A stretch of 64,000 nt of DNA from NCBI GenBank assembly GCA_031082285.1, contig JAVHLK010000010.1:12407-76406 (forward strand), in the 5' to 3' direction. The stretch comes from Desulfomonilaceae bacterium. Its GTDB lineage: Bacteria; Desulfobacterota; Desulfomonilia; Desulfomonilales; Desulfomonilaceae. Under the pieces are notes generated by a model. It saw only the letters and a list, made by a program, of their open reading frames with translations. It did no database searches and was not told the DNA's origin. Made by a program: the position numbers and the translations under genes. Shown one piece after another: positions 1 to 13,041 of this stretch. Position 1 is the first letter of the stretch. The number at the start of each line of letters is the position of its first letter.

Positions 1-2717
1 GGGCCGATGACGGACACCCAGACAACAACCCCTCGGCCTGGAATGACTTCGATGTGATCGTGTACAACGATCCTACCGACATCACGGATCATCCTGCCGA
101 TCAGAGGATAATGGAAGACAGCCTCTTCACTTACAATATTGAGGCGAGAGATGAAGAGGTGGAGCGAGCCGGCATCAACACATATTACACCCTGGACGTG
201 AATGATGGATCCGGCTGGCAGAGCTATACAGACTACAACGCGGGCAACCTTCTCAGAGCCGACGTTGTGTTTGACACCGACGCCGGCGTATTTTCATGGC
301 AGCCCAATCACGACGACGCAGAAGTGGGTACCTACGATTTCAGGGTAACTCACTACGATGGCCACGGCAGCAGCGACGTGGAAACCTTCGCTCTGACCGT
401 GGACAACAGGCCGCCTGACATCAGTAACGTACCGGTAACATGGCAGCTCACCGAAGATGATTCGGTGAATTTTCCCGCGGACACTTCGCTGTGGACTCTT
501 GACCTCAACTCGGACGACGATCCGTACGCCAATATCACATACGAGCTCCGGATCGACGGCTACAACTGGACCTCGGGCTATCGTCCCAACGGCCCCGACG
601 GCGGCGAGGTCATCTTCGATCCGAACACCGGCGAAATCCAATGGGCCACCACCAACGCAGACGTGACCGAGGACACCGGCGGCGGAAGTTCCCGATTACC
701 ATACGTTTTCAGCGTCAGGGCCGATGACGGACACCCAGACAACAACCCCTCGGCCTGGAATGACTTCGATGTGAGGGTCTTCAACGATCCTACCGACATC
801 ACGGATCATCCCGCGGATCAGACCATCACCGAAGACGTGCTCTTCCAGTATGACATCCAAGCCACGGACGAGGAGGTCGAAAGGCCGGGAATCAACACAT
901 ACTACGACCTGAATGTGAACGACGGAACCGGTTGGGTGCCTTTCTTGGTGTATAATTCAGGGAACGGATCCAGAGGCGACATTATCTTCGATCCTGATAC
1001 GGGGCTCTTTCAGTGGACACCGAACAACCTTGACAAGCTTGTCGGCGTATACGATTTCCAAGTGATTCATCATGACGGCCACGGAAGCTCCGACATTAAG
1101 ACGTTCCAATTGACTTTGGAGAACGATCCTCCTGAGTTCACTGCATTTCCATCGCCTGCCCGTTGGGACCTGACGGAAGACGACGCGGTAAACCATCCGG
1201 GGTCTCCGGAACTGTGGACGCTGGAAGAAAGCCGTATTGAAACGTCGGACGAGGGGTTCGGCCTCACTTACTCTCTGCTTATTGACGGCGTCTTGTGGAC
1301 TCCGGGCTACCGCCCGAACGGTCCTCACGGCGGCGAAGTCTTTTTCGATACGTTGAACGGTGAGATCGTTTGGGCGACCACCAACGCGGATGTTACGACA
1401 TTTTGGGGCGGCGGTGCTGCGAGACCTGCGTATCAGTTTACCATTGTAGCCGATGACAACGCGGGCGGAGTCGCCGGGGCAACGCTCGAAGTCTATGTTG
1501 CCGACGATCCGACGGACATAAGTGATATCCCCGACCAAACCATAGTAGAGGACGGCGCTCCACTCTTCATCGATGCCGTTGCAAGAGACGAGCAAATAGA
1601 GAGCGACAACCCGACTCCCGTACCGTTCGGAACCGGCGACGCTTACTATAGCCTGGAAATCGCCAGGCTTGACGCGGGTCCCGGGAACTTTGTGGATGTG
1701 GGAACCTACAACGCGGCGAACGGCAACCTTGGATCGGACATCGTGTTCGACCCCTCTACGGGGCAAATCGCCTGGTCGGTCACAAATTCGGACGTCGGCG
1801 ACTACACGTTCAGGATCACGCATCATGACGGCTTTCTGAGCACGGCCTCCGACACGTTTAACGTGACGGTTTTGAACAGACCGCCGGTTTTCACGTCGAA
1901 TCCCTCTTCAGATCCCGTCGTGGTGATGGAAACCAAGTTCTTCTCTTATGATGCGAATAGTAGCGAAGAAGGCCGACACGATTGGTATGCCGGCCACGAT
2001 GAGGTCACCTACTCAATTGTTGAGGGTCCTGGTGACATCAGCATAGACCGCTACACCGGAGTGATCCATTGGCAGGCACCGAGCCATCTGGCCGGCTCGC
2101 ACAGGGTGACCATCCGGGTCGATGACGGAAACGGCGGCTGGGATATCCAGAGCTTCATGCTGATCGTCGATGTTCCTATCGGCGATTTGCCGCTCGAACC
2201 GAGGGAACCCGATATTGATCACTATCGGGGGACCCGGGTACTGCCGGAACCTGAGAATATTGAACCGAGAGCCAAACCGGTTCACGAGCCGATTCTGGCT
2301 GAGCACAGCCCTATTGAAGAGCGTCCATGGGCGGAATGGACTCATTTCTTCAGGCGTCCCACCGAGAAGATCAATGACGTGCTGTCTCTGTTCATGGGCA
2401 AGCTCTTCAAACAGCCCGAACAGGAAATCGGCGGAAGCATTGCCCCCATCACGCCGCTGGCCGGACACCACCCGCACGTGTCGGATGGAAAGCGACTCGA
2501 TTTCGATGCGGACCTTATCGCCCTGTGGAATGCGTTCGATCCGGGTCAACCGAGCCTCGGCATCGGCGGCGGTCAGGATCCCACTACTCCGCTTGAGGGG
2601 CATCCTGTCGAGGTAGACATGGGCAAGAAACTTGACTTCGACTACTACCCCATAAAGGAGACCGTTGCTTTTGACCTGGATGACCTGACCGTGGCTCAGT
2701 TGCTCGAAGTTGATTGA
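1..2717 (+). CDS. Giant cadherin/Ig-like repeat surface protein, C-terminal part (5' end outside window)
   Basis: The reading frame is open from the first bases, so this is the C-terminal 904 residues of a longer protein. Visible residues fall into three tandem units of about 239 residues starting near 23, 262 and 501, each opening with DPTDITDHPAD or a close variant. Each unit holds two Ig/cadherin-like folds with VFDxxTGxxxW and YxFxVxxDDG motifs, typical of secreted Ca-binding adhesins. From about residue 725 a Pro/Glu-rich tail follows that contains two copies of a short TPL-GH...LDFD motif and ends at a TGA before the exporter genes. The acidic repeats suggest an extracellular structural or adhesive role. 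No transmembrane segment or LPXTG-like anchor is visible. Export by the downstream adaptor/TolC genes is inferred from position. Substrate and partner are unknown. Confidence 0.85.
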   Translation, partial: ADDGHPDNNPSAWNDFDVIVYNDPTDITDHPADQRIMEDSLFTYNIEARDEEVERAGINTYYTLDVNDGSGWQSYTDYNAGNLLRADVVFDTDAGVFSWQPNHDDAEVGTYDFRVTHYDGHGSSDVETFALTVDNRPPDISNVPVTWQLTEDDSVNFPADTSLWTLDLNSDDDPYANITYELRIDGYNWTSGYRPNGPDGGEVIFDPNTGEIQWATTNADVTEDTGGGSSRLPYVFSVRADDGHPDNNPSAWNDFDVRVFNDPTDITDHPADQTITEDVLFQYDIQATDEEVERPGINTYYDLNVNDGTGWVPFLVYNSGNGSRGDIIFDPDTGLFQWTPNNLDKLVGVYDFQVIHHDGHGSSDIKTFQLTLENDPPEFTAFPSPARWDLTEDDAVNHPGSPELWTLEESRIETSDEGFGLTYSLLIDGVLWTPGYRPNGPHGGEVFFDTLNGEIVWATTNADVTTFWGGGAARPAYQFTIVADDNAGGVAGATLEVYVADDPTDISDIPDQTIVEDGAPLFIDAVARDEQIESDNPTPVPFGTGDAYYSLEIARLDAGPGNFVDVGTYNAANGNLGSDIVFDPSTGQIAWSVTNSDVGDYTFRITHHDGFLSTASDTFNVTVLNRPPVFTSNPSSDPVVVMETKFFSYDANSSEEGRHDWYAGHDEVTYSIVEGPGDISIDRYTGVIHWQAPSHLAGSHRVTIRVDDGNGGWDIQSFMLIVDVPIGDLPLEPREPDIDHYRGTRVLPEPENIEPRAKPVHEPILAEHSPIEERPWAEWTHFFRRPTEKINDVLSLFMGKLFKQPEQEIGGSIAPITPLAGHHPHVSDGKRLDFDADLIALWNAFDPGQPSLGIGGGQDPTTPLEGHPVEVDMGKKLDFDYYPIKETVAFDLDDLTVAQLLEVD

Positions 2718-2913: not shown

Positions 2914-3789
2914 ATGATGGGGTCACTCAGTCAGTGGTTAGTTTTCTTGTTGGCCGGGTTACTGGTATGCACAAGCCACTTGTTCGCGGATGAAACGGAG
3001 CGACTGCCCGAGTTCTCGACGCGGATCGCATCCACTCCCCAGGAACTATCCTCAACGGTCAATGAGGAAAGCTTGGTTTCGCGGGAACTTCCCAATGAGG
3101 TGAATGCGGTGATTTACCCGTATCAGTCGGCCACCCTGGGGTCAGAGGTCAGAGGAATCGTGGATCGCATCAATTTCCAGGAGGGTGATCCCGTATCGGC
3201 CGGCGCGCTCCTCGCCGAGGTCTCGCCGGCTAAGTACGAGGCCGTACACGGGGAGTTCAAATCCAACGAAGAGGCTATTGCGCGCACCCTGGCAGAGGCA
3301 CGGTCGAACCTTAGAATCCGTGAAGATCTCTATCAAAATCGAGCCTGCACGCAAGAGGATGTGGACGCATCCCGTTTTCAGGTGCAGGTGCTGGAAGCCC
3401 GGTACGAAGAAGCCAAGTTCAAGACCGAACAGTCCCGGCTCAATTTGCAGGCATGCCGCATCAAAGCGCCTTTTTCCGGGTTGATTGCAGTTCGGTACCG
3501 TGATTCTCACGAAACCGTTGATTTTCTGGAAAAAATTCTGGAAGTCGTCGACATCTCAAAGGTCTATGCCCGCGCCAATTGGCCTGAGGCCGGAATTCCA
3601 CAACTTGCCATTGGGAAAAGAGCCTACTTCAGTTACCGCGGAAAATCCTATGAGGGCAAAATCGCCAGAATCGCGCCCCTCATTGACCCTGCATCCAAGA
3701 GCAAGCGCGTACACGTCTTGCTGGAAAATCCCGACAACAGGCTTGAAGTGGGCATGTCCGGCAGTGTGAAGCTGGCGGATCCGGAGTAG
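2914..3789 (+). CDS. Periplasmic adaptor protein (HlyD/membrane-fusion family)
   Basis: This 291-residue protein has a signal peptide (hydrophobic WLVFLLAGLLVC, likely cleaved near residue 26) and no later membrane segment, so it should be periplasmic. From about residue 65 it shows the split lipoyl pattern of membrane-fusion proteins: a first half (ATLGSEVRGIVDRI...GDPV), an alpha-helical hairpin around 110-175, the second half (RIKAPFSGLIAVRY), then a beta-barrel domain ending EVGMSGSVKL. The family bridges an inner-membrane pump to a TolC-like channel. A GGAG lies about nine bases before the ATG; a second ATG follows at once. It lies 196 bases after the giant repeat protein and before a TolC-like gene, which suggests a dedicated exporter. 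It is shorter than typical HlyD and lacks the N-terminal membrane anchor. Confidence 0.85.
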   Translation: MMGSLSQWLVFLLAGLLVCTSHLFADETERLPEFSTRIASTPQELSSTVNEESLVSRELPNEVNAVIYPYQSATLGSEVRGIVDRINFQEGDPVSAGALLAEVSPAKYEAVHGEFKSNEEAIARTLAEARSNLRIREDLYQNRACTQEDVDASRFQVQVLEARYEEAKFKTEQSRLNLQACRIKAPFSGLIAVRYRDSHETVDFLEKILEVVDISKVYARANWPEAGIPQLAIGKRAYFSYRGKSYEGKIARIAPLIDPASKSKRVHVLLENPDNRLEVGMSGSVKLADPE

Positions 3790-4323
3790 GCTCAGGAGCG
3801 ACCGACCCGTTCGTTCCGTTCGCTCCACCGTGTGGAACGCCGTCCGCAGCCGTCGTCCGTAGGAGGAGGTCTATAAGTATTTGTACCGAGTTTTCGTCCT
3901 CACTCCAGTACGTGTAGAATGATCATCGTATAGCCAAGAAGGTGTTGAACATATCGGTCACCGGTTACGTTGTTCTTTCTGAAAGCGGTTTTTTCCCTCC
4001 CTTACGGCGACCTCGTCCGAGGCGGACCGCATGCCGTTCCCTCAGGGAAACATGCTCGACAGAGTACCGGAATTCCAAAATGAATCAAATGGTTGACAGG
4101 TTCCCATCTGTTATGCTATATGAGCGTAAACGCGTCTTGTGATATTCTTTCGCGGGTGAGGGAACTGGTCGGAGTGTCCGCGTGGGATGGTATGCAATAA
4201 CCCCTACGGGTATTTCAATTGAGGATGGTGATGGGTATGGTATTCGATTGGCCGGTTCTCAAAGACCTAAGAACGGGTCTGAAGGCCGTTTTTTATGGTC
4301 GGTCGATTGGAGATCAGGGCCGA
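3790..4323. other. Intergenic region with promoter
   Basis: This 530-base stretch holds no convincing gene. It contains the promoter at 4093-4122. A short hairpin before a T run (about 3978-3995) might be a weak terminator for the adaptor gene. The reading frame of the next gene is open back to a TTG at 4219, but the later ATG is preferred. Confidence 0.5.
4093..4122 (+). promoter_or_regulatory. Sigma-70 promoter for the TolC-like gene
   Basis: A perfect -35 TTGACA (4093-4098) is followed after 18 bases by TATATG (4117-4122). It lies about 200 bases before the preferred start at 4324. The -35 is the best match in the exporter region. Confidence 0.5.
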
Positions 4324-5940
4324 ATGTCTTGTCGCAGCGGCCTGTATATCCTGTCGGCTGGTTGCCTATGTGCCTTGTTTCTCACACTTGTTGCGTGTCA
4401 GGCTCCCCTCTTACACATACGCCAGGATAATGCTCAGCGGGTTCTTGTTGCATACCGGGCAAAGCCTGTTGCGGCGGCCAACCAAGGTCGCACGGATCTG
4501 ACACTGCATGATTGCCGTCGTCTCGTGCTTTCCAACAGCCTTGATATGCACACCGCGCTGTGGGACGAGCAGGTGAAGGCAAGAACCGCGCAGAGTACTC
4601 TTCCGGCTATGCTTCCGAAAATAGAGGGGAGATACGAGTACTCTCAGCGAGATACGCTGGCCTGGAGCCGCAGCGACGTGATAGGCCAGGAAGGCTCGTT
4701 CGAAGTGATTGGACCGGGACCCGGCACCGGGGTGACCAATTGGTCGACGGCAAGGACTCGAGCCTGGTCCAGGGGCCATATTGAATTGAAATGGTCTCCC
4801 ATGGAGGCGGCCATGGCTTACTACTTCTCGCGAGTGAGGAACAATGAGACCGACTTTGCGAAGTATCAGCGGGACCGGGTCGCACAGAAGCTTATAGGAT
4901 CGGCGACCGCAGCTTTTTATCGGCTGCTGGCTCTTCAGGAAGCCCTCCCAAGAGCCGAAGAGCTCGTAAACAAGCTGGTCGGGGTCTCGAGTGATCTGGA
5001 GACGGTGGGAGACCGGGGGAGAACTCTGGATTTGTACAGGGAGAAAGAAAAGGAATATCAGGAAACACTTCGTTATTCGAAGGCTCGGTGGTCCAACGCC
5101 AAGGCGAGGCTCTCCGAAATCCGCGTGAGCATAGGTAAGCAGCGCGATTTGCTTGCTGCAAATATGAATGTGTGTCCTGACGACCACTTTCGGGTGATCG
5201 GCAGGCTGGAACCCATTCCCCCATGGGATTTGGAGCCGTGTAAGCTGGAAGCCGCGGCACTGCTGAACCGGCCTGAGGCCTTTCAGGCAGATCTTACGTT
5301 TCTCAGCTCCCTGGACGAACAGAAGCGGTCCATCGTGAAATTTTTTCCCAAAGCTGAAGGGTTCCTGGGACAATACTGGGACGCGACCAAGTTTCTCTAT
5401 CATAATGGATGGACGGATGGCGGGCTCCGAGTGACCTGGGACCTCATGCAATTCACGTCGGATCTGCTCAGCTACCAGGCCGCCAAAGAAAACGTTGTCA
5501 AGACGGACAAGGAGCGATCCCTGATTTCCATGGGTATTCTTACTCAGGTCAGGATGGAAACACTCGATGCCATTTCTGCCTATGATCGTCTCAAGAAGGC
5601 CGCCGAGCTGGAAGTTCAGGCCCGTGAATCGTACCGAATCGCCCAAGCTTTGGATAAGGGACGATCATTGGTCGACTCGGTTTCAAGACACCTGGGCCAT
5701 GTCGATGCACGACTCAAGTTGTGCGACCTTCTGGAGGCACGAATCGACAAGCTCCTTGCGGCCGGTGAACTCCACGCGGCGCTCGCCGACCTCCATGCTG
5801 CAGTGGGCACCAATTTTCCCGTCTCGACCGCGCATCCTCAGGCTCAGGATGAACGCAGAATGGCTCACCAAATTATGCATCTGCCAAAGTCGGTTCTCGG
5901 AAGCGCCGTGGGAGCGGTCAGCGATCTTATTCGCCGGTAG
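4324..5940 (+). CDS. TolC-like outer-membrane efflux protein, lipoprotein type
   Basis: The 538-residue product begins with a signal ending in a lipobox-like LVAC, as in OprM/NodT-type lipoprotein channels. The body is rich in long amphipathic helices with heptad patterns (for example ALQEALPRAEELVNKLVGV) in two halves, the layout of the TolC family in which trimers form an outer-membrane channel and periplasmic tunnel. The start at 4324 is chosen because it gives a normal-length lipoprotein signal and has GGAG ten bases upstream; the frame is open back to a TTG at 4219. With adaptor genes on both sides it most likely forms the outer-membrane exit of the same exporter. The beta-strand segments are not obvious by eye, so the family call rests on length, helices, signal and context. 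Confidence 0.75.
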   Translation: MSCRSGLYILSAGCLCALFLTLVACQAPLLHIRQDNAQRVLVAYRAKPVAAANQGRTDLTLHDCRRLVLSNSLDMHTALWDEQVKARTAQSTLPAMLPKIEGRYEYSQRDTLAWSRSDVIGQEGSFEVIGPGPGTGVTNWSTARTRAWSRGHIELKWSPMEAAMAYYFSRVRNNETDFAKYQRDRVAQKLIGSATAAFYRLLALQEALPRAEELVNKLVGVSSDLETVGDRGRTLDLYREKEKEYQETLRYSKARWSNAKARLSEIRVSIGKQRDLLAANMNVCPDDHFRVIGRLEPIPPWDLEPCKLEAAALLNRPEAFQADLTFLSSLDEQKRSIVKFFPKAEGFLGQYWDATKFLYHNGWTDGGLRVTWDLMQFTSDLLSYQAAKENVVKTDKERSLISMGILTQVRMETLDAISAYDRLKKAAELEVQARESYRIAQALDKGRSLVDSVSRHLGHVDARLKLCDLLEARIDKLLAAGELHAALADLHAAVGTNFPVSTAHPQAQDERRMAHQIMHLPKSVLGSAVGAVSDLIRR

Positions 5941-6152
5941 GCCGGTAGCGGCCTGATGGGGAACGGTGAATTGAAGGGATTGCCGGCCCCTGCGATCCGT
6001 GCCGGATGCAACAGAAGCCGCAGGCGTTCCACGGCCCCACATGGAGAGCGTGCGAAATCAGGCCGTGAAATCATCGGGACGCGAAGAGAAACAGAAGACA
6101 AATCCCTTGACACCACCCTTTCCATCCTGGATCGGTTCCCTTTGTACAACTG

Positions 6153-6161
6153 TGATATAGT
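6153..6161 (+). promoter_or_regulatory. Possible extended -10 element before the M50/HlyD gene
   Basis: TG-N-TATAGT lies directly before the GTG/ATG starts at 6162/6168. If used, the transcript would be almost leaderless. No good -35 is placed correctly; a TTGACA at 6107-6112 is too far away. The element resembles the TGTGATAT at 2823-2830. Confidence 0.2.
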
Positions 6162-6167
6162 GTGGAC

Positions 6168-8276
6168 ATGGCTGAGTTCAAACCCAAATTCAGGCCTGAT
6201 ATCAGGAGGCATGCATTCGGCGAGGCGCATGGAGGTCAATCCATCGTCCTGGAAGATCCCGTGGCCAATAAGTTCTTTCGATTGTCCTCGTACGAGTTCG
6301 ATCTGTTGCGGGTTCTCGATGGAACCGTCACAGTGGAAGAAGCGGTAGAGAAACTAAGACTCTATGGTCGCTACTACACCATAGAGCATGCAAGCAAATT
6401 GCTCGAACAATTCTCACGGGTGGGGCTCCTGCTGGGAACCGCGCACGGATACTCCGCGAACCAGATGCGTCTCAAAGCTTCACTGGAAGAAGCCCGGAGG
6501 AAGCGTAGTCTTTTCCGCATATATTTCCTGTTTATTCCCCTTGTGAATCCTGATGAGTTTCTGAGCAGGACTTTGTGGCTGTGGCGGATGGCGGTTAACC
6601 CCGTCACTGCATTGATCCCGATTATATTGGCCCCCGCCGCGATCTATCTGTTGATTTCCGGATTGATGCGATTTCAAACAGAATATCTGTTTTTCTTCAA
6701 TGTTCGCAATCTCGCCGTATTATGGATCGCCATCGCGCTTGTGAAACTGATTCATGAGTTCTCTCATGCGTATACGGCGAAGAGCTTGGGCCTTCACGTC
6801 CCGGAAATGGGTGTGGGGTTTCTCTTGTTCTTCCCAGTTCTTTACTGCAACACCACGGCCGCGTGGCAATTGGCGGACCGGCGCCAAAGGATGTGGATAT
6901 CCGCCGCCGGAGTCTTCTCTGAAGCCTGCATAGCCGTGTTTTCCGTTTTTGTATGGTACTTCACGAATCCCGGGATCGTCAATTCCGTTGCGTTCTATCT
7001 CATGGCCATATCGTTATTGACGTCGATTCTGTTCAATGCGAACCCGCTTATGAAGTTCGACGGCTATTTTGTTCTCGCTGACTGGTTGAGGATTCCGAAC
7101 CTGCAATCACGATCGTTTGGATTGCTGAGGTATCTGTTCTGGAATCGGGTATTGGGTGTGGAGTCCTTCCGGGCTCGTCGGAACCGCGGCAAGGAGTTCT
7201 CCATTCTGTTGGTGTATGGCATCGCGGCCTTTATCTACAGGATATTCCTGTATGCCGGAATCGTCATAGGAATTTACTACCGGTTTGACAAGACACTCGG
7301 CATCATGCTCGGGTGTCTGGCTTTTACACTCTTTGTGGTTCGCCCGCTGGTCGGAGGTATGTCGGGTTTGTGGAAGCGGAGGTCTGAAATGAGCTTTCGA
7401 CCGTACGGACTGGCGGTCTTTGCCGCATTTCTGGTGTCTGCAGGTGTTCTGGTGACGATTCCCTGGTCCAGGAATTCGGTCTATCCCTGCTATATTGACT
7501 CGACCATGGTTCGCAAAATCGTTATTCCCGTGGAAGCCCCTGTCGGAAATGTTTACGCAAGGAAAGGTGAACGAGTCCGCGAAGGCACCACGATCCTTTC
7601 CCTGGATTCCACTCGTCTGGAATATGAGCTGCGTGACAAGAAACTGGAAAAGTCTTTGCTGTCCGAGGAAATTGCAATTATCGAAGCCTCCGGAAATGAC
7701 CTGGCACGCATTCCTCTGAAGCGTATCGAGCTTTCGCAGACATCGGATGCACTCAAGGAGATACGTGAGGACATGTCCCGTCTCGAATGGAAGGCCCCCT
7801 TCAACGGCGTAATCACCGACCTGGCGACGAATCTTCAACCCGGCGCCAGACTGGAGAAAGGTACAGTGGTCGGCGAACTGACCGGAGAAGAACAATGCGA
7901 AGTAATCGGTCTTGTCCCGGAACATGAGATAGGAAAAGTCCGCGAGGGAACTGCAGTCGAAATCTGGTTCCCCATCGGAACAGGCACATCGTTCTCCGCC
8001 ACGGTGAAGGAAATCAGCGTCTTTCACCGGGAAGACCTTGCGGATTCTCCATTTTCCAGCCGATTCGGGGGGGAAATCGCAACCGCCCAACGCAGCCCTG
8101 AATACAAGGATGTACCTCTGGAGGCCTACTACATGTGTCGAGTGGATTTTCCAAATCAAGTGGGAATTCCTCTTGGAATGACGGGCAGAATCGCGGTTCC
8201 CGAACCGGCCCGAAGCATTCTCCGGAGGGTTGTGGAAACGGTTTACAAGACTTTTCGCCGGGAAATCATCTTCTAA
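6168..8276 (+). CDS. PqqD-like / M50 metallopeptidase / HlyD-type adaptor fusion
   Basis: The 702-residue protein joins three parts. Residues 10-90 look like a PqqD-type peptide-binding fold (RPDIRRHAFG...SYEFDLLRVLDG). Residues 125-425 form a multi-pass membrane region with HEFSH at 196-200 and NPLMKFDGY (Asp298), the zinc-site motifs of site-2-protease/M50 enzymes. From about 450 a lipoyl/HlyD segment follows (VEAPVGNVYARKGERV...EWKAPFNGVITDL). M50 enzymes cleave within or near membranes. Here the enzyme is presumably fixed to the export channel and may process or gate the exported protein. ATG 6168 is preferred over GTG 6162; no clear Shine-Dalgarno is seen. The stop overlaps the next start (TAATG), implying translational coupling. 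The family occurs with large secreted proteins, but its substrate is not known from this sequence. Confidence 0.85.
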   Translation: MAEFKPKFRPDIRRHAFGEAHGGQSIVLEDPVANKFFRLSSYEFDLLRVLDGTVTVEEAVEKLRLYGRYYTIEHASKLLEQFSRVGLLLGTAHGYSANQMRLKASLEEARRKRSLFRIYFLFIPLVNPDEFLSRTLWLWRMAVNPVTALIPIILAPAAIYLLISGLMRFQTEYLFFFNVRNLAVLWIAIALVKLIHEFSHAYTAKSLGLHVPEMGVGFLLFFPVLYCNTTAAWQLADRRQRMWISAAGVFSEACIAVFSVFVWYFTNPGIVNSVAFYLMAISLLTSILFNANPLMKFDGYFVLADWLRIPNLQSRSFGLLRYLFWNRVLGVESFRARRNRGKEFSILLVYGIAAFIYRIFLYAGIVIGIYYRFDKTLGIMLGCLAFTLFVVRPLVGGMSGLWKRRSEMSFRPYGLAVFAAFLVSAGVLVTIPWSRNSVYPCYIDSTMVRKIVIPVEAPVGNVYARKGERVREGTTILSLDSTRLEYELRDKKLEKSLLSEEIAIIEASGNDLARIPLKRIELSQTSDALKEIREDMSRLEWKAPFNGVITDLATNLQPGARLEKGTVVGELTGEEQCEVIGLVPEHEIGKVREGTAVEIWFPIGTGTSFSATVKEISVFHREDLADSPFSSRFGGEIATAQRSPEYKDVPLEAYYMCRVDFPNQVGIPLGMTGRIAVPEPARSILRRVVETVYKTFRREIIF

Positions 8277-9769
8277 TGCCATCGAACGAAGTCATGACGG
8301 ATCACGGTACGCAACGGGACACGGTTACCCCCGAACACAAATCGCCGGACCACTCGCCCGACGATCCCCGGCGACGGACGCTCGCCATTGGATTGGAACT
8401 GGCCAAGAGGGCGTTGCGCGCGGCGAACTTGGAGGAGCTCCTGTTTATCTTGGTGAATGATTCAAGGGCTCTCCTTTCATTTGATCGCTCCTTTCTCATC
8501 GTTCATTCTGAGGGACGTTCCGAGCTGGTCGCGACCAGCAATCAGCCCTACGTAGAGGTCAAGGCCGACCTGGTGAAACGTGTCAACAAGCTTGCCGCCG
8601 CCATCAAGCCCGTTGAAAAAGCCCTGGTGCTGTTGGCGGGAAACTTGCGACTCAGGGATCTGCCTGAAGAAACCGCTGCCGCATTGCAGAGCTTCATTGA
8701 ATACTCCGGATGCTCCACGCTCATGCTGGTTCCCATCAATTCCGGAAACAACGTGGTCGGCCATCTGCTATTCGAGTTTTTCAGTGAGACGCCTCCGGGG
8801 GAGATTGAGGCCGTGACCCTTCTGAACATGATCCCTTTCTTCGGCTCGGCGTTGACGGAGAAGTGGTTGCTGGACAGAAATAAATTCGTGCGTACCATTT
8901 ACAATCGAACGTTCTCAAAAGATCGGCGATCATCGGGACTGGGTCGCTACGTCATCAAGGCCGTGCTTCTATTATTATTGGCGGTTGTTATCGTAACCGG
9001 CATGTTCGCTCCTCTTACCCTCAAGGTCGGCGGCGAGGCGGAAGTGGTGCCGGACATGGAGTATTTTGCGTACGTGGAAAGAGACGGCATCGTGAAGGAG
9101 GTGTACGTCAGAGAGGGGGAAATCGTCGGAAAAGACTCACTCCTAGCCGTTCTGGATTCCCAAGAACTGGATTATGAGATTCGCAAAACTCAAAGAATGA
9201 TGGAAAGCTATCAAACCGAGATCGCCATCTTACGAAACATGGGCGCCGAAGATCCCACTAAGCTCGCTGAGAGCAAACTTGTGTCTATCAAAGCCGAACG
9301 ATCCCGCCAGGAAATGGAATTCCTCAATTGGCAGAGACAATTCCTGCAAATCAAGGCCCCACTGGAAGGAACCGTGCTCACCCAAAAGGTGGAAACACTT
9401 GTTGGCAAGAGATTCAAAGCAGGTGAACCGTTCTGTTCCATAGCGCCACACGAACACCTCAGCCTGGACATCTTCCTGAACGAAAGCGATACCGCCTACG
9501 TAAAACCGGACCAGACCGCGGTAATCTACTTCAACTTTCAACCGGACGAGGGCCGTCGTTTGAGGGTGAAGAGCGTCGCGCCCAAGTCGGAAACCCTGGA
9601 AAGACTGGGCGCAGTCTTCAGGGTCCGAGCGGAATTTGAAGCCGTGCCCCTGGGAGTCAGACCCGGCATGAAAGGCATTGCACAGATAGACACCGAAAAG
9701 AGCGAATTTTGGTTTGTGGTCACCAGACGTCTCAGGGCGAAGCTCAATGAGCTCATGCTGCTTTTCTGA
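8276..9769 (+). CDS. GAF domain - transmembrane - HlyD-type adaptor protein
   Basis: The ATG at 8276 shares its A with the TAA stop of the M50/HlyD gene, so the two are translationally coupled. The 497-residue product has an N-terminal cytoplasmic GAF-like domain (about 25-190; LLSFDRSFLIV...GCSTLMLVPI), one membrane helix (about 222-244; VLLLLLAVVIVTGMF) and a periplasmic membrane-fusion part with lipoyl halves around a helical hairpin (GIVKEVYVREGEIV ... LQIKAPLEGTVLTQ) and a C-terminal barrel ending RPGMKGIAQI. GAF domains bind small ligands or mediate dimerisation, so this adaptor could sense a cytoplasmic signal and change the export complex. It would be the second membrane adaptor of the set. 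No ABC ATPase follows. The role is inferred from architecture and neighbours. Confidence 0.85.
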   Translation: MPSNEVMTDHGTQRDTVTPEHKSPDHSPDDPRRRTLAIGLELAKRALRAANLEELLFILVNDSRALLSFDRSFLIVHSEGRSELVATSNQPYVEVKADLVKRVNKLAAAIKPVEKALVLLAGNLRLRDLPEETAAALQSFIEYSGCSTLMLVPINSGNNVVGHLLFEFFSETPPGEIEAVTLLNMIPFFGSALTEKWLLDRNKFVRTIYNRTFSKDRRSSGLGRYVIKAVLLLLLAVVIVTGMFAPLTLKVGGEAEVVPDMEYFAYVERDGIVKEVYVREGEIVGKDSLLAVLDSQELDYEIRKTQRMMESYQTEIAILRNMGAEDPTKLAESKLVSIKAERSRQEMEFLNWQRQFLQIKAPLEGTVLTQKVETLVGKRFKAGEPFCSIAPHEHLSLDIFLNESDTAYVKPDQTAVIYFNFQPDEGRRLRVKSVAPKSETLERLGAVFRVRAEFEAVPLGVRPGMKGIAQIDTEKSEFWFVVTRRLRAKLNELMLLF

Positions 9770-9987: not shown

Positions 9988-10800
9988 CTAGAACTCCGAG
10001 TCGTCGGGCGGGACCGCGAGCCCGTGGCCCGGGATGAATGGAATCGGCGCGACAGGATATCCGCGCGTCCACCGAATACCACATCGCAGGACCGTCTTGA
10101 CCGGCGCCGCGTGGAGAAACTCTTCGGGGTTACCGCCGGTCGCTTCACCTTCCAGGATGGAAGGTATGACTCTGATGCTGTGCCCTTTTTCCGGTGAGTA
10201 CTCATAAAAACGGTGCAGTTCCTCGGGAATCGTTCCGGAATAGGTCTCCAGTCCCGGTGGTTGGGCCTGGATGGAGTCCTTCAAGTGCGATCCCAATTCG
10301 ATCATTTCCCAGAGATTTTCCTTGGGATACGATTGTGCACAGAAACCTCTCACCGCGCGATCGAACTCGACTTCCGTCCACGGTTGCGTTCTTCCGATCA
10401 AAGTCTGCAAGTCTCTAAAAAATTTCCGGAATCCATTCTCCGTGTCCACGGAGAACTTTTTGCCCTTTTCATTGTAGAAGTGAACGGTGAGGACCTCTTG
10501 CTCGGACATCCTCTTGAACTGAGCCGAGCCGTCGGGAGAATGGTAATTCCACCACACATCGAAGATTTCTTCGTTACTCCGCGTTAACTTGATCATCGTC
10601 ACGACGAGCAGGACATCATCGAATCTGATCAGACCCGCACGCTGTTCGATCCCCAGATCCCGATCGTTGAAGTCAAGACCGGAGAGCCCTCGAATGAAGA
10701 GGCCCACCTCTCGAGATCCCTCGGGACGAGAAACAAAAATCCCCTGTACGCTCTCCCCGGGCACCAATCGAATGTTCTCCGGGTCAACCATCTGCACCAT
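9988..10800 (-). CDS. Hypothetical protein
   Basis: I do not recognise this 270-residue protein. It has no signal peptide or membrane helix and looks like a soluble cytosolic protein with mixed alpha/beta segments (SVQGIFVSRPEGSREVGLFI, VLTVHFYNEKGKKF). The start at 10800 is preferred because GGAGG stands five bases upstream; an in-frame ATG at 10812 is possible. It is convergent with the exporter operon (218-base gap) and lies downstream of the methyltransferase/ATP-grasp gene on the same strand, separated by a long hairpin, so it probably has its own promoter. Confidence 0.6.
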   Translation of the reverse strand: MVQMVDPENIRLVPGESVQGIFVSRPEGSREVGLFIRGLSGLDFNDRDLGIEQRAGLIRFDDVLLVVTMIKLTRSNEEIFDVWWNYHSPDGSAQFKRMSEQEVLTVHFYNEKGKKFSVDTENGFRKFFRDLQTLIGRTQPWTEVEFDRAVRGFCAQSYPKENLWEMIELGSHLKDSIQAQPPGLETYSGTIPEELHRFYEYSPEKGHSIRVIPSILEGEATGGNPEEFLHAAPVKTVLRCGIRWTRGYPVAPIPFIPGHGLAVPPDDSEF

Positions 10801-11097: not shown

Positions 11098-13041
11098 TCA
11101 CATTTGCCCCGCCGCGGGGAGAGCCAGCCGTTCTTCTGCCGCCCTGAGTATGGCCGTGAGCATTTCGGCATAGGACATCCCGGCCATGGCGGCCATTTTC
11201 GCCAGGTGGCCGTCCCAGCACCAACCCGGGTTCGGGTTCACTTCAAGCAGCTTTGGTTGCCCAGCTGCGTCGAGGCGCCAATCCAACCGGGTGTAGTCAC
11301 GACACTCAAGTCGTTCCGCGAGAACAGTGGACCACTCGATCAGATCTTTCTGTGTTTGGGGCGGCAGGGCCGCGGGAATCGACCTGATCCGCCAATAGGG
11401 TGAATCGGGACGCCACTTTGCCTCATAGCCGCATATGCGTGGAAGATCGTCGGGAAGGTCGGAATAATCCTCTTCGGCCATGGGAAGTACGGTGTATGAG
11501 CTGGGGGGGTTCCCTATGATCCCCACGGTAAGGTCGCTTCCGGTGAGAAACTCCTCCACGATGATGGGCTTCTCGTAGCCGAAATTGCGCCGAATATCCG
11601 AAATGGCGTCGAGCAAACCTTCGGCGTCAAACGCGACGCTCCGAGCGGTGATGCCGAAACTTGAATCGCCGAAATTCGGTTTCACCAATACCGGGAAACG
11701 AAGCGGCAAATCATAGGAGCAATCTTCGGGCTTGATGAAATGAGCTTCCGGTACGGGTATGCCCATTTCCTTGGCGATCCCCCGTACCAGAGATTTGTCG
11801 TAGCAAAAGGCGAGACACTGAGGTCCCGAACCGGTATACGGAATCCCCAGCGTTTCCAGGAGAGCGGGAACGTGAAGTTCCCGTCGCGGATCGTTTCTGA
11901 ATCCCTCGTCACAGAGGTTGAGCACCAGATCCGTCTGCCCCGCGATGCTCAACAGGTCTCGAATAAGCGTGTCGTGGTTCGTCAAGTACGTGAACCGGTA
12001 GCCGTCGATTTCCCGGAAAACCCCTTTCATCTGGTCTATGGTATAGAAATCGTCATCGTCGAAGACCGACAGAGGCTTCAAGGGGTCGGGCTTGCCGGGA
12101 TCGCCCAGAAGGACGACCACGTGCCTCTCTCCGACAGCCTTCTTTCGTTTCGCCGGTGACCATTGTTTACGGATTCGGCCCGTGACGACGAATCGCTTCT
12201 CCATCATTCCCAGATCTTGGGCCCGAGCCGAATCGGGTGACAATTCCGCGGGAAACGAGACGTCTCCGAATCCGGTTTCCCCCAGGAGATCGGATACCCT
12301 GTCCCGTGAGTAAAGTCGTTCCGCGTAAAACTGGTCGGCCAGGACTCCCTTGGATACGTGAGTGACCACTTCCCGAGAGACCATCCTCTCACCGTCCGAG
12401 GAGAGCGATCGCTCCCGACACACGAACAGGTTGTCGTCTATCCATTCCCACGACCGTTTCTGGAAATTGGCCTTCAAATACTCCCCATCCGCCAGGTCGA
12501 TGAGCAATCTTCCCCAAGGTTTCAGGACACGCGCCACTTCCTTGATGACCCGAAGGTCGTCCTCCAGCGTATCAAAGTATCCGAAGCTGTTTCCCAGCAC
12601 GAGTACCGCGTCGAATTCGTCGTTCTTGTACGGGAGTTTTCGGGCGTCACCTTCTCTGAATTTCGTCGCGAGCCCGAGGACCTTGGCGCGTTGCCTCGCC
12701 CTCTGTATGAGGTAGTGGGAACGGTCCAATCCCTCCACGTTCACGAAACCTCTTTTCGCAAGCTCGAGCGTATGACGGCCCTGCCCGCAGCAAAGATCCA
12801 GTATTCGGTGGTCTCCGGACAGTCTCAGCCATTGACACACTTGATCGACCTCGGCCGCGGTAATACGCGAATCGTCCACCACGTCCCCATCGGTCTTGAG
12901 ATAGAGCGAATTGAAAATCTTGTGCCACCAGTCCTGCGCTACGTGTTCCTCCAAACTCCTCACCGGGCCCAGACTTCTCACAAGAGGTCGGTCTCTCTTG
13001 GTGCGCGGCGGACTCTTCTTCAAAACGCTTTTCTTGGCCAT
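11098..13041 (-). CDS. SAM methyltransferase - D-Ala-D-Ala-ligase-like ATP-grasp fusion
   Basis: The 647-residue protein has two enzymatic halves. Residues 65-290 form a class I SAM-dependent methyltransferase with motif I LDLCCGQGRHTLELA, an acidic post-I residue (EGLDRS) and FDAVLVLGNSFGYF. Residues 305-640 resemble D-alanine-D-alanine ligase or related ATP-grasp carboxylate-amine ligases (VLVKPNFGDSSFGIT, IVEEFLTGSDLTVGI, LLEVNPNPGWCWDGH). ATP-grasp ligases of this type join amino acids through an acyl-phosphate; the attached methyltransferase suggests the substrate or product is methylated, for example a modified peptide or amino-acid natural product. AGGAGG lies 12 bases before the ATG. 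No peptidoglycan gene is adjacent, so a housekeeping ddl role is unlikely. Substrates are unknown. Confidence 0.85.
   Translation of the reverse strand: MAKKSVLKKSPPRTKRDRPLVRSLGPVRSLEEHVAQDWWHKIFNSLYLKTDGDVVDDSRITAAEVDQVCQWLRLSGDHRILDLCCGQGRHTLELAKRGFVNVEGLDRSHYLIQRARQRAKVLGLATKFREGDARKLPYKNDEFDAVLVLGNSFGYFDTLEDDLRVIKEVARVLKPWGRLLIDLADGEYLKANFQKRSWEWIDDNLFVCRERSLSSDGERMVSREVVTHVSKGVLADQFYAERLYSRDRVSDLLGETGFGDVSFPAELSPDSARAQDLGMMEKRFVVTGRIRKQWSPAKRKKAVGERHVVVLLGDPGKPDPLKPLSVFDDDDFYTIDQMKGVFREIDGYRFTYLTNHDTLIRDLLSIAGQTDLVLNLCDEGFRNDPRRELHVPALLETLGIPYTGSGPQCLAFCYDKSLVRGIAKEMGIPVPEAHFIKPEDCSYDLPLRFPVLVKPNFGDSSFGITARSVAFDAEGLLDAISDIRRNFGYEKPIIVEEFLTGSDLTVGIIGNPPSSYTVLPMAEEDYSDLPDDLPRICGYEAKWRPDSPYWRIRSIPAALPPQTQKDLIEWSTVLAERLECRDYTRLDWRLDAAGQPKLLEVNPNPGWCWDGHLAKMAAMAGMSYAEMLTAILRAAEERLALPAAGQM

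Follow-up and report, generated by a model that had tools for sequence, protein, structure and literature searches.

How does a very large repeat protein leave a Gram-negative cell when the exporter genes beside it include no ABC ATPase? The locus that raises this question belongs to a Desulfomonilaceae bacterium whose genome (5.6 Mb) is 99.9% complete. The window, by which we mean the whole stretch of 64,000 nucleotides analysed, covers bases 12407–76406 of an 82 kb contig, and the closest named relatives of the locus in a search of a genome contig collection are Desulfomonile MAGs. Window positions 1–2717 (plus strand) hold the 3′ part of a gene for a giant protein, the presumed cargo, in which Pfam recognizes Ig-like He_PIG repeats; RTX families were absent from the Pfam matches of the parts scanned. 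The gene starts at contig base 3251 (C11:3251), about 9.16 kb upstream of window base 1, with the N terminus MPLFSKRVPVHVVEPLNIFEQLEDRIVLDA, and ends at window position 2717. A scaffold gap of 98 Ns (L001:12309–12406) lies inside it, directly before the window, and since the two sides of this gap are in different reading frames, ~4,000 codons is an estimated length. Three Desulfomonile-type cargos have in common a C-terminal motif of the form hxFDLxxLSxxxLL: that of the window (2660–2717), that of L060 (which ends near 10463), and that of L072.

Four genes follow on the same strand. A soluble periplasmic adaptor of the HlyD/RND type (ADP, 2914–3789; TIGR01730, 4e-44; HlyD_D23, 5e-19) precedes a TolC-like outer-membrane lipoprotein (4324–5940; OEP, 3e-6), the translation of which carries the lipobox LTLVAC; its frame opens at 4219, with ATG 4324 the most likely start. 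Next come the two fusions that give the locus its character. M50H (6168–8276; frame open from 6162, ATG 6168 the most likely start) joins a PqqD-like domain, an M50 membrane metalloprotease domain with the motifs HEFSH and NANPLMKFDGY, and a HlyD domain. GAFH (8276–9769) joins a GAF-like domain, one transmembrane helix and a HlyD domain, and its ATG overlaps the M50H stop codon (TAATG). In the window itself, Pfam places HlyD_D23/HlyD_3 in 2914–3789, 6162–8276 and 8276–9769, OEP in 4219–5940 and Peptidase_M50 in 6162–8276. The PqqD and GAF labels come from the families, where Pfam finds PqqD in 9 of 21 homologues of M50H and GAF in 8 of 20 homologues of GAFH; structure prediction gives the window proteins a small strand-and-helix N-terminal domain (M50H) and a GAF-like topology (GAFH). 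The two predicted structures have mean pLDDT of 79.8 and 86.1, and their pTM of 0.57 and 0.45 makes the arrangement of domains uncertain. Structure searches with either protein returned adaptors (HlyD/MacA/MexA) for all of the best 50 matches. Pfam, family counts and folds thus agree with the preliminary description of a giant gene followed by an adaptor, a TolC-like lipoprotein, a PqqD–M50–HlyD protein and a GAF–TM–HlyD protein. Spacing at the locus is loose, with gaps of about 200–530 bp, and a single operon is a candidate only. Beyond GAFH, on the minus strand at 11098–13041, a methyltransferase domain is fused to a D-Ala-D-Ala ligase C-terminal domain.

For the M50 part of M50H, the best-scoring families are daptide and epipeptide proteases, though the scores stay under the cut-offs of both. 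The HExxH motif and the distal Asp ligand are conserved in 49 of 49 M50H homologues and sit within membrane helices in the predicted structure, and because these ligands are kept throughout, M50H is likely an active metalloprotease.

That no ABC ATPase stands beside the exporter had been read from the window, and the wider search bears it out. ABC profiles have no match in the window or in the 12.5 kb upstream of it. A profile search of the genome listed at least 108 ABC matches (150 of 239 candidates scored), none of them among those listed on the window contig. An ABC transporter just upstream, or consistently linked in homologous loci, had been named as the finding that would overturn the idea; a linked ABC gene was sought with a family search of the genome, a regular expression and a home-built profile run over all loci, and none turned up. 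At the roughly 50 homologous loci, ABC genes come no closer to M50H than 7.3 kb, and none of their families is conserved. We regard the gene set and its want of a linked ABC gene as close to certain.

What the preliminary description overlooked is a different ATPase. Its proposal of an ABC-free exporter tied to a giant protein stands, but in most relatives a dedicated SecA-like ATPase (SecA2) adjoins the M50H gene. A search of 395 genomes of the phylum found 21 with long M50H matches, and the genome contig collection yielded 22 loci from Desulfomonile, Magnetococcales, Planctomycetes and Burkholderiales. In many of these neighbourhoods, the gene after M50H encodes a SecA-like protein about 660 residues long; the one example scanned combines SecA_DEAD with preprotein cross-linking and P-loop domains. 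Since most relatives carry it, the missing motor is most naturally matched to SecA rather than to an ABC protein. The window is another matter. The only SecA_DEAD protein that its genome encodes is the housekeeping SecA, of 893 residues, and SecA2 is absent. Twelve other M50H genomes also have only one SecA, including two assembled as single contigs, G014 and G098 (a weak 25-bit match in G098 being ignored); where SecA2 is linked to M50H, the genome has at least two SecA_DEAD matches. A tree of 49 M50H proteins gathers those linked to SecA2 in one clade (100/99) and places the window in a separate group of 20, with no SecA2 at any fetched locus of that group. The only genome of the group known to have SecA2, from Magnetococcales (L041), carries it in a second M50H–GAFH locus. 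The window belongs to a deep branch of M50H without SecA2, and we are highly confident that SecA2 is absent from its lineage. Another SecA2-free genome, G105, groups on the opposite side of the tree, and SecA2 may therefore have been lost more than once. Clustering of open reading frames of 90 aa or more across the SecA2-free loci brought out no conserved gene family beyond those of the module, ATPases included.

The gene combination is not a chance one, since M50H, GAFH and a LEPR giant recur at two further loci of the same genome and in dozens of other genomes. One paralogous locus (C259) has no TolC or adaptor of its own. In G098, with its one true SecA, the genes form a contiguous run of five: cargo, TolC, ADP, GAFH and M50H. 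The same contig (L080/L081, contig 1, about 43.7–55.4 kb) has a second giant of 3,916 aa, 2 kb from M50H, with an N terminus like the extended signal peptide seen in two-partner secretion.

What, then, does the module carry? The giants adjoining M50H share an N-terminal motif: basic residues, LExR, three hydrophobic residues and then mostly D-A/G-A or S-A/G-D/T. It corresponds to the LEPR-XLL domain (NCBIfam NF012209), and an instance at the window locus is L001:3302–3346. The window giant scores 18.3 bits against this model in six-frame translation (cut-off 17) and 13.9 bits as a 1000-aa fragment. The 5.6 Mb genome has three matches at E≤1, one at each of its three M50H loci. In the phylum sample at E≤0.1, 18 of 21 genomes with M50H have a LEPR match vs 24 of 374 without (p=7e-17), and in Burkholderiales at E≤0.01 the figures are 26 of 42 and 1 of 158 (p=1e-20); both p-values overstate independence because the genomes are related, though the two groups are distant from each other. 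Two genomes of the phylum have a LEPR match at E<0.01 and no detected M50H, and both carry SecA2 beside an adaptor. Within the fetched neighbourhoods, the strict motif occurs in 19 of 36 open reading frames of 1200 aa or more, compared with 2 of 499 shorter ones. Linkage is looser in Burkholderiales (22 of 58 M50H loci have a LEPR match on their contig no more than 20 kb away), in part because contigs end and the genes run to 45 kb. The longest LEPR open frame has 15,080 residues (G153).

Hydropathy revealed no Sec-type hydrophobic core in the basic N termini of the cargos. The highest 15-residue value for the window cargo is 0.76, and extending it to the upstream stop gained no such core; TolC homologues at cargo loci reach 2.1–2.8. 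Taken from sequence, all this makes the LEPR giants very probably the cargo of the M50H module. Immediately after the hydrophobic triplet, 13 of 14 cargos from SecA2-free genomes have D (the other has A), and 16 of 19 from SecA2 genomes have S. Serine with SecA2 and aspartate without it had to be abandoned as a rule, and is a tendency, because G082 and G135 combine D with SecA2. In the third exception, L041, SecA2 lies at a separate M50H–GAFH locus. A Magnetococcales LEPR protein of 1,583 aa (L041:3834–8585) ends in a HlyD-type adaptor, through fusion or a lost stop codon. We set it aside as proof of partnership: it is a hint, which a lost stop codon could explain.

The module itself is already known. 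Kamneva, Poudel and Ward (2015; PMC4452313) describe genes for M50–HlyD, GAF–HlyD, HlyD and sometimes OEP proteins beside a secondary SecA ("SecA2"), with no ABC gene; they remark on the missing ABC protein and propose SecA as the ATPase and the M50 protein as the pore, and the text consulted names no substrate, LEPR giants included. The window likewise brings M50–HlyD, GAF–HlyD, a HlyD adaptor and OEP together with no ABC gene; SecA2 is co-encoded in their module, whereas the branch of the window has it in neither locus nor genome. The suggestion that the M50 protein serves as an integral membrane component had already been made by Kamneva et al., and its companion, proteolysis as a source of energy, finds no support. 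Proteolysis as cargo processing is plausible, given that all M50 metal ligands are conserved.

Our reading, to which we give a probability of roughly 0.6, is that the five genes would make up an ABC-free exporter dedicated to a single giant repeat protein with a LEPR tag. Its basis in the sequence is the presence and recurrence of the gene set, a link with LExR giants that have no Sec signal peptide, the conserved M50 ligands, and the absence of a linked ABC or SecA2 gene. We hold its single molecular steps with less confidence than its general form. In RiPP pathways, leader peptides are bound by RRE domains of the PqqD type; by analogy, the cytosolic domain of M50H that resembles PqqD might bind the N-terminal LEPR tag. 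We know of no site-2-type protease shown to form a channel for proteins of such size. The M50 membrane domain may handle or clip the tag and form the entry point at the inner membrane, a picture that borrows from EpeP, an M50 protein believed to cleave its peptide as well as export it (PMC10885120). A periplasmic duct to the TolC lipoprotein would then be built from the HlyD domains of M50H, of GAFH and of the free adaptor, and the GAF domain of GAFH could respond to a signal in the cytosol. The push would come from a dedicated SecA2 in most relatives. In the branch of the window, the housekeeping SecA would be the most likely motor, with or without SecYEG, because it is the only SecA there.

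Three other accounts of the locus have to be weighed. Rather than conducting the cargo, M50H and GAFH might detect and process it or act as envelope regulators, the one in the manner of a site-2 protease and the other as a GAF sensor, with housekeeping Sec or some other route moving the giant. Site-2 proteases are normally regulators, the metal ligands of M50H are invariant, and the genome has a single SecY and a single SecA, all of which suits this account; against it, both proteins carry HlyD duct domains, the cargo has no Sec signal peptide, and the gene set is tied to a class of cargo. We judge it unlikely. Quite unlikely, too, is an ordinary type I system energized by a HlyB- or MacB-type ABC protein encoded elsewhere, with M50H and GAFH as accessories. 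TolC and adaptors are indeed common to type I systems, and more than 100 ABC domains in the genome offer candidates. Yet the 50 or so homologous loci share no ABC gene, the linked ATPase of the sister branch is a SecA homologue, and what is conserved at the core is M50H and GAFH, not an ABC protein.

The third account, an exporter of a peptide or small molecule that neighbours the giant gene by chance, draws on the resemblance of the M50 part to daptide and epipeptide proteases, its best matches even if below cut-off. It was already disfavoured by the co-occurrence statistics. The three out of three loci in the window genome, the co-occurrence in two distant groups, and the lack of any precursor peptide family of 90 aa or more conserved at the loci leave it very improbable.

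Like type I (HlyB–HlyD–TolC) and MacAB–TolC systems, the window has HlyD-type adaptors, a TolC-type outer-membrane protein and giant adhesin-like cargo. In those systems, an ABC ATPase is present and normally linked, whereas none is linked here, and their adaptors are not fused to M50 and GAF domains. Type I cargo has an uncleaved C-terminal signal and is often of the RTX kind, whereas the motif conserved across window-type cargos is N-terminal; three Desulfomonile-type cargos also share a C-terminal one. With the M50 proteases of RiPP pathways (daptide, NF041824; YydH/LiaK, NF058609; EpeP), M50H shares an M50 core with HExxH, but it falls below the curated cut-offs, is fused to HlyD and would serve a cargo of thousands of residues rather than a peptide. 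The Gram-positive accessory Sec system has a second SecA, as does the sister branch, where it would likewise be dedicated to large exported proteins; the branch of the window has no counterpart. The module also differs in its outer-membrane duct. A second SecY as dedicated channel was considered and rejected, being absent from 18 of the 20 genomes tested, including that of the window, where SecY is single-copy. Two SecA2 genomes have a second, divergent SecY of 525 aa (G208:C109:6223–7206 and G252:C198:11064–12044).

As far as the literature searched goes, two things are new: the partner of the module, giants that bear a LEPR-XLL-type motif at the N terminus and lack a Sec signal peptide, and the deep branch without SecA2, which has only the housekeeping SecA. 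In that literature, which took in few subscription papers and no preprints, no paper links LEPR proteins to the M50H exporter. We entertain a larger claim tentatively, at somewhat less than even odds: a distinct Gram-negative secretion pathway for giants with open frames of up to about 15,000 residues, in which a short N-terminal non-Sec tag would be read by the PqqD-like domain of a duct-fused metalloprotease and export driven by a SecA-type ATPase, with the branch of the window relying on housekeeping SecA alone or on no dedicated ATPase. An exporter described in silico in 2015 without substrate or signal gains a probable substrate and a probable signal. The LEPR-XLL giants, among the longest of bacterial proteins and with an exit route undescribed in the literature searched, gain a machine. 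And three carriers of the module with only one SecA, the window genome and the two single-contig genomes, make the question of the motor directly testable.
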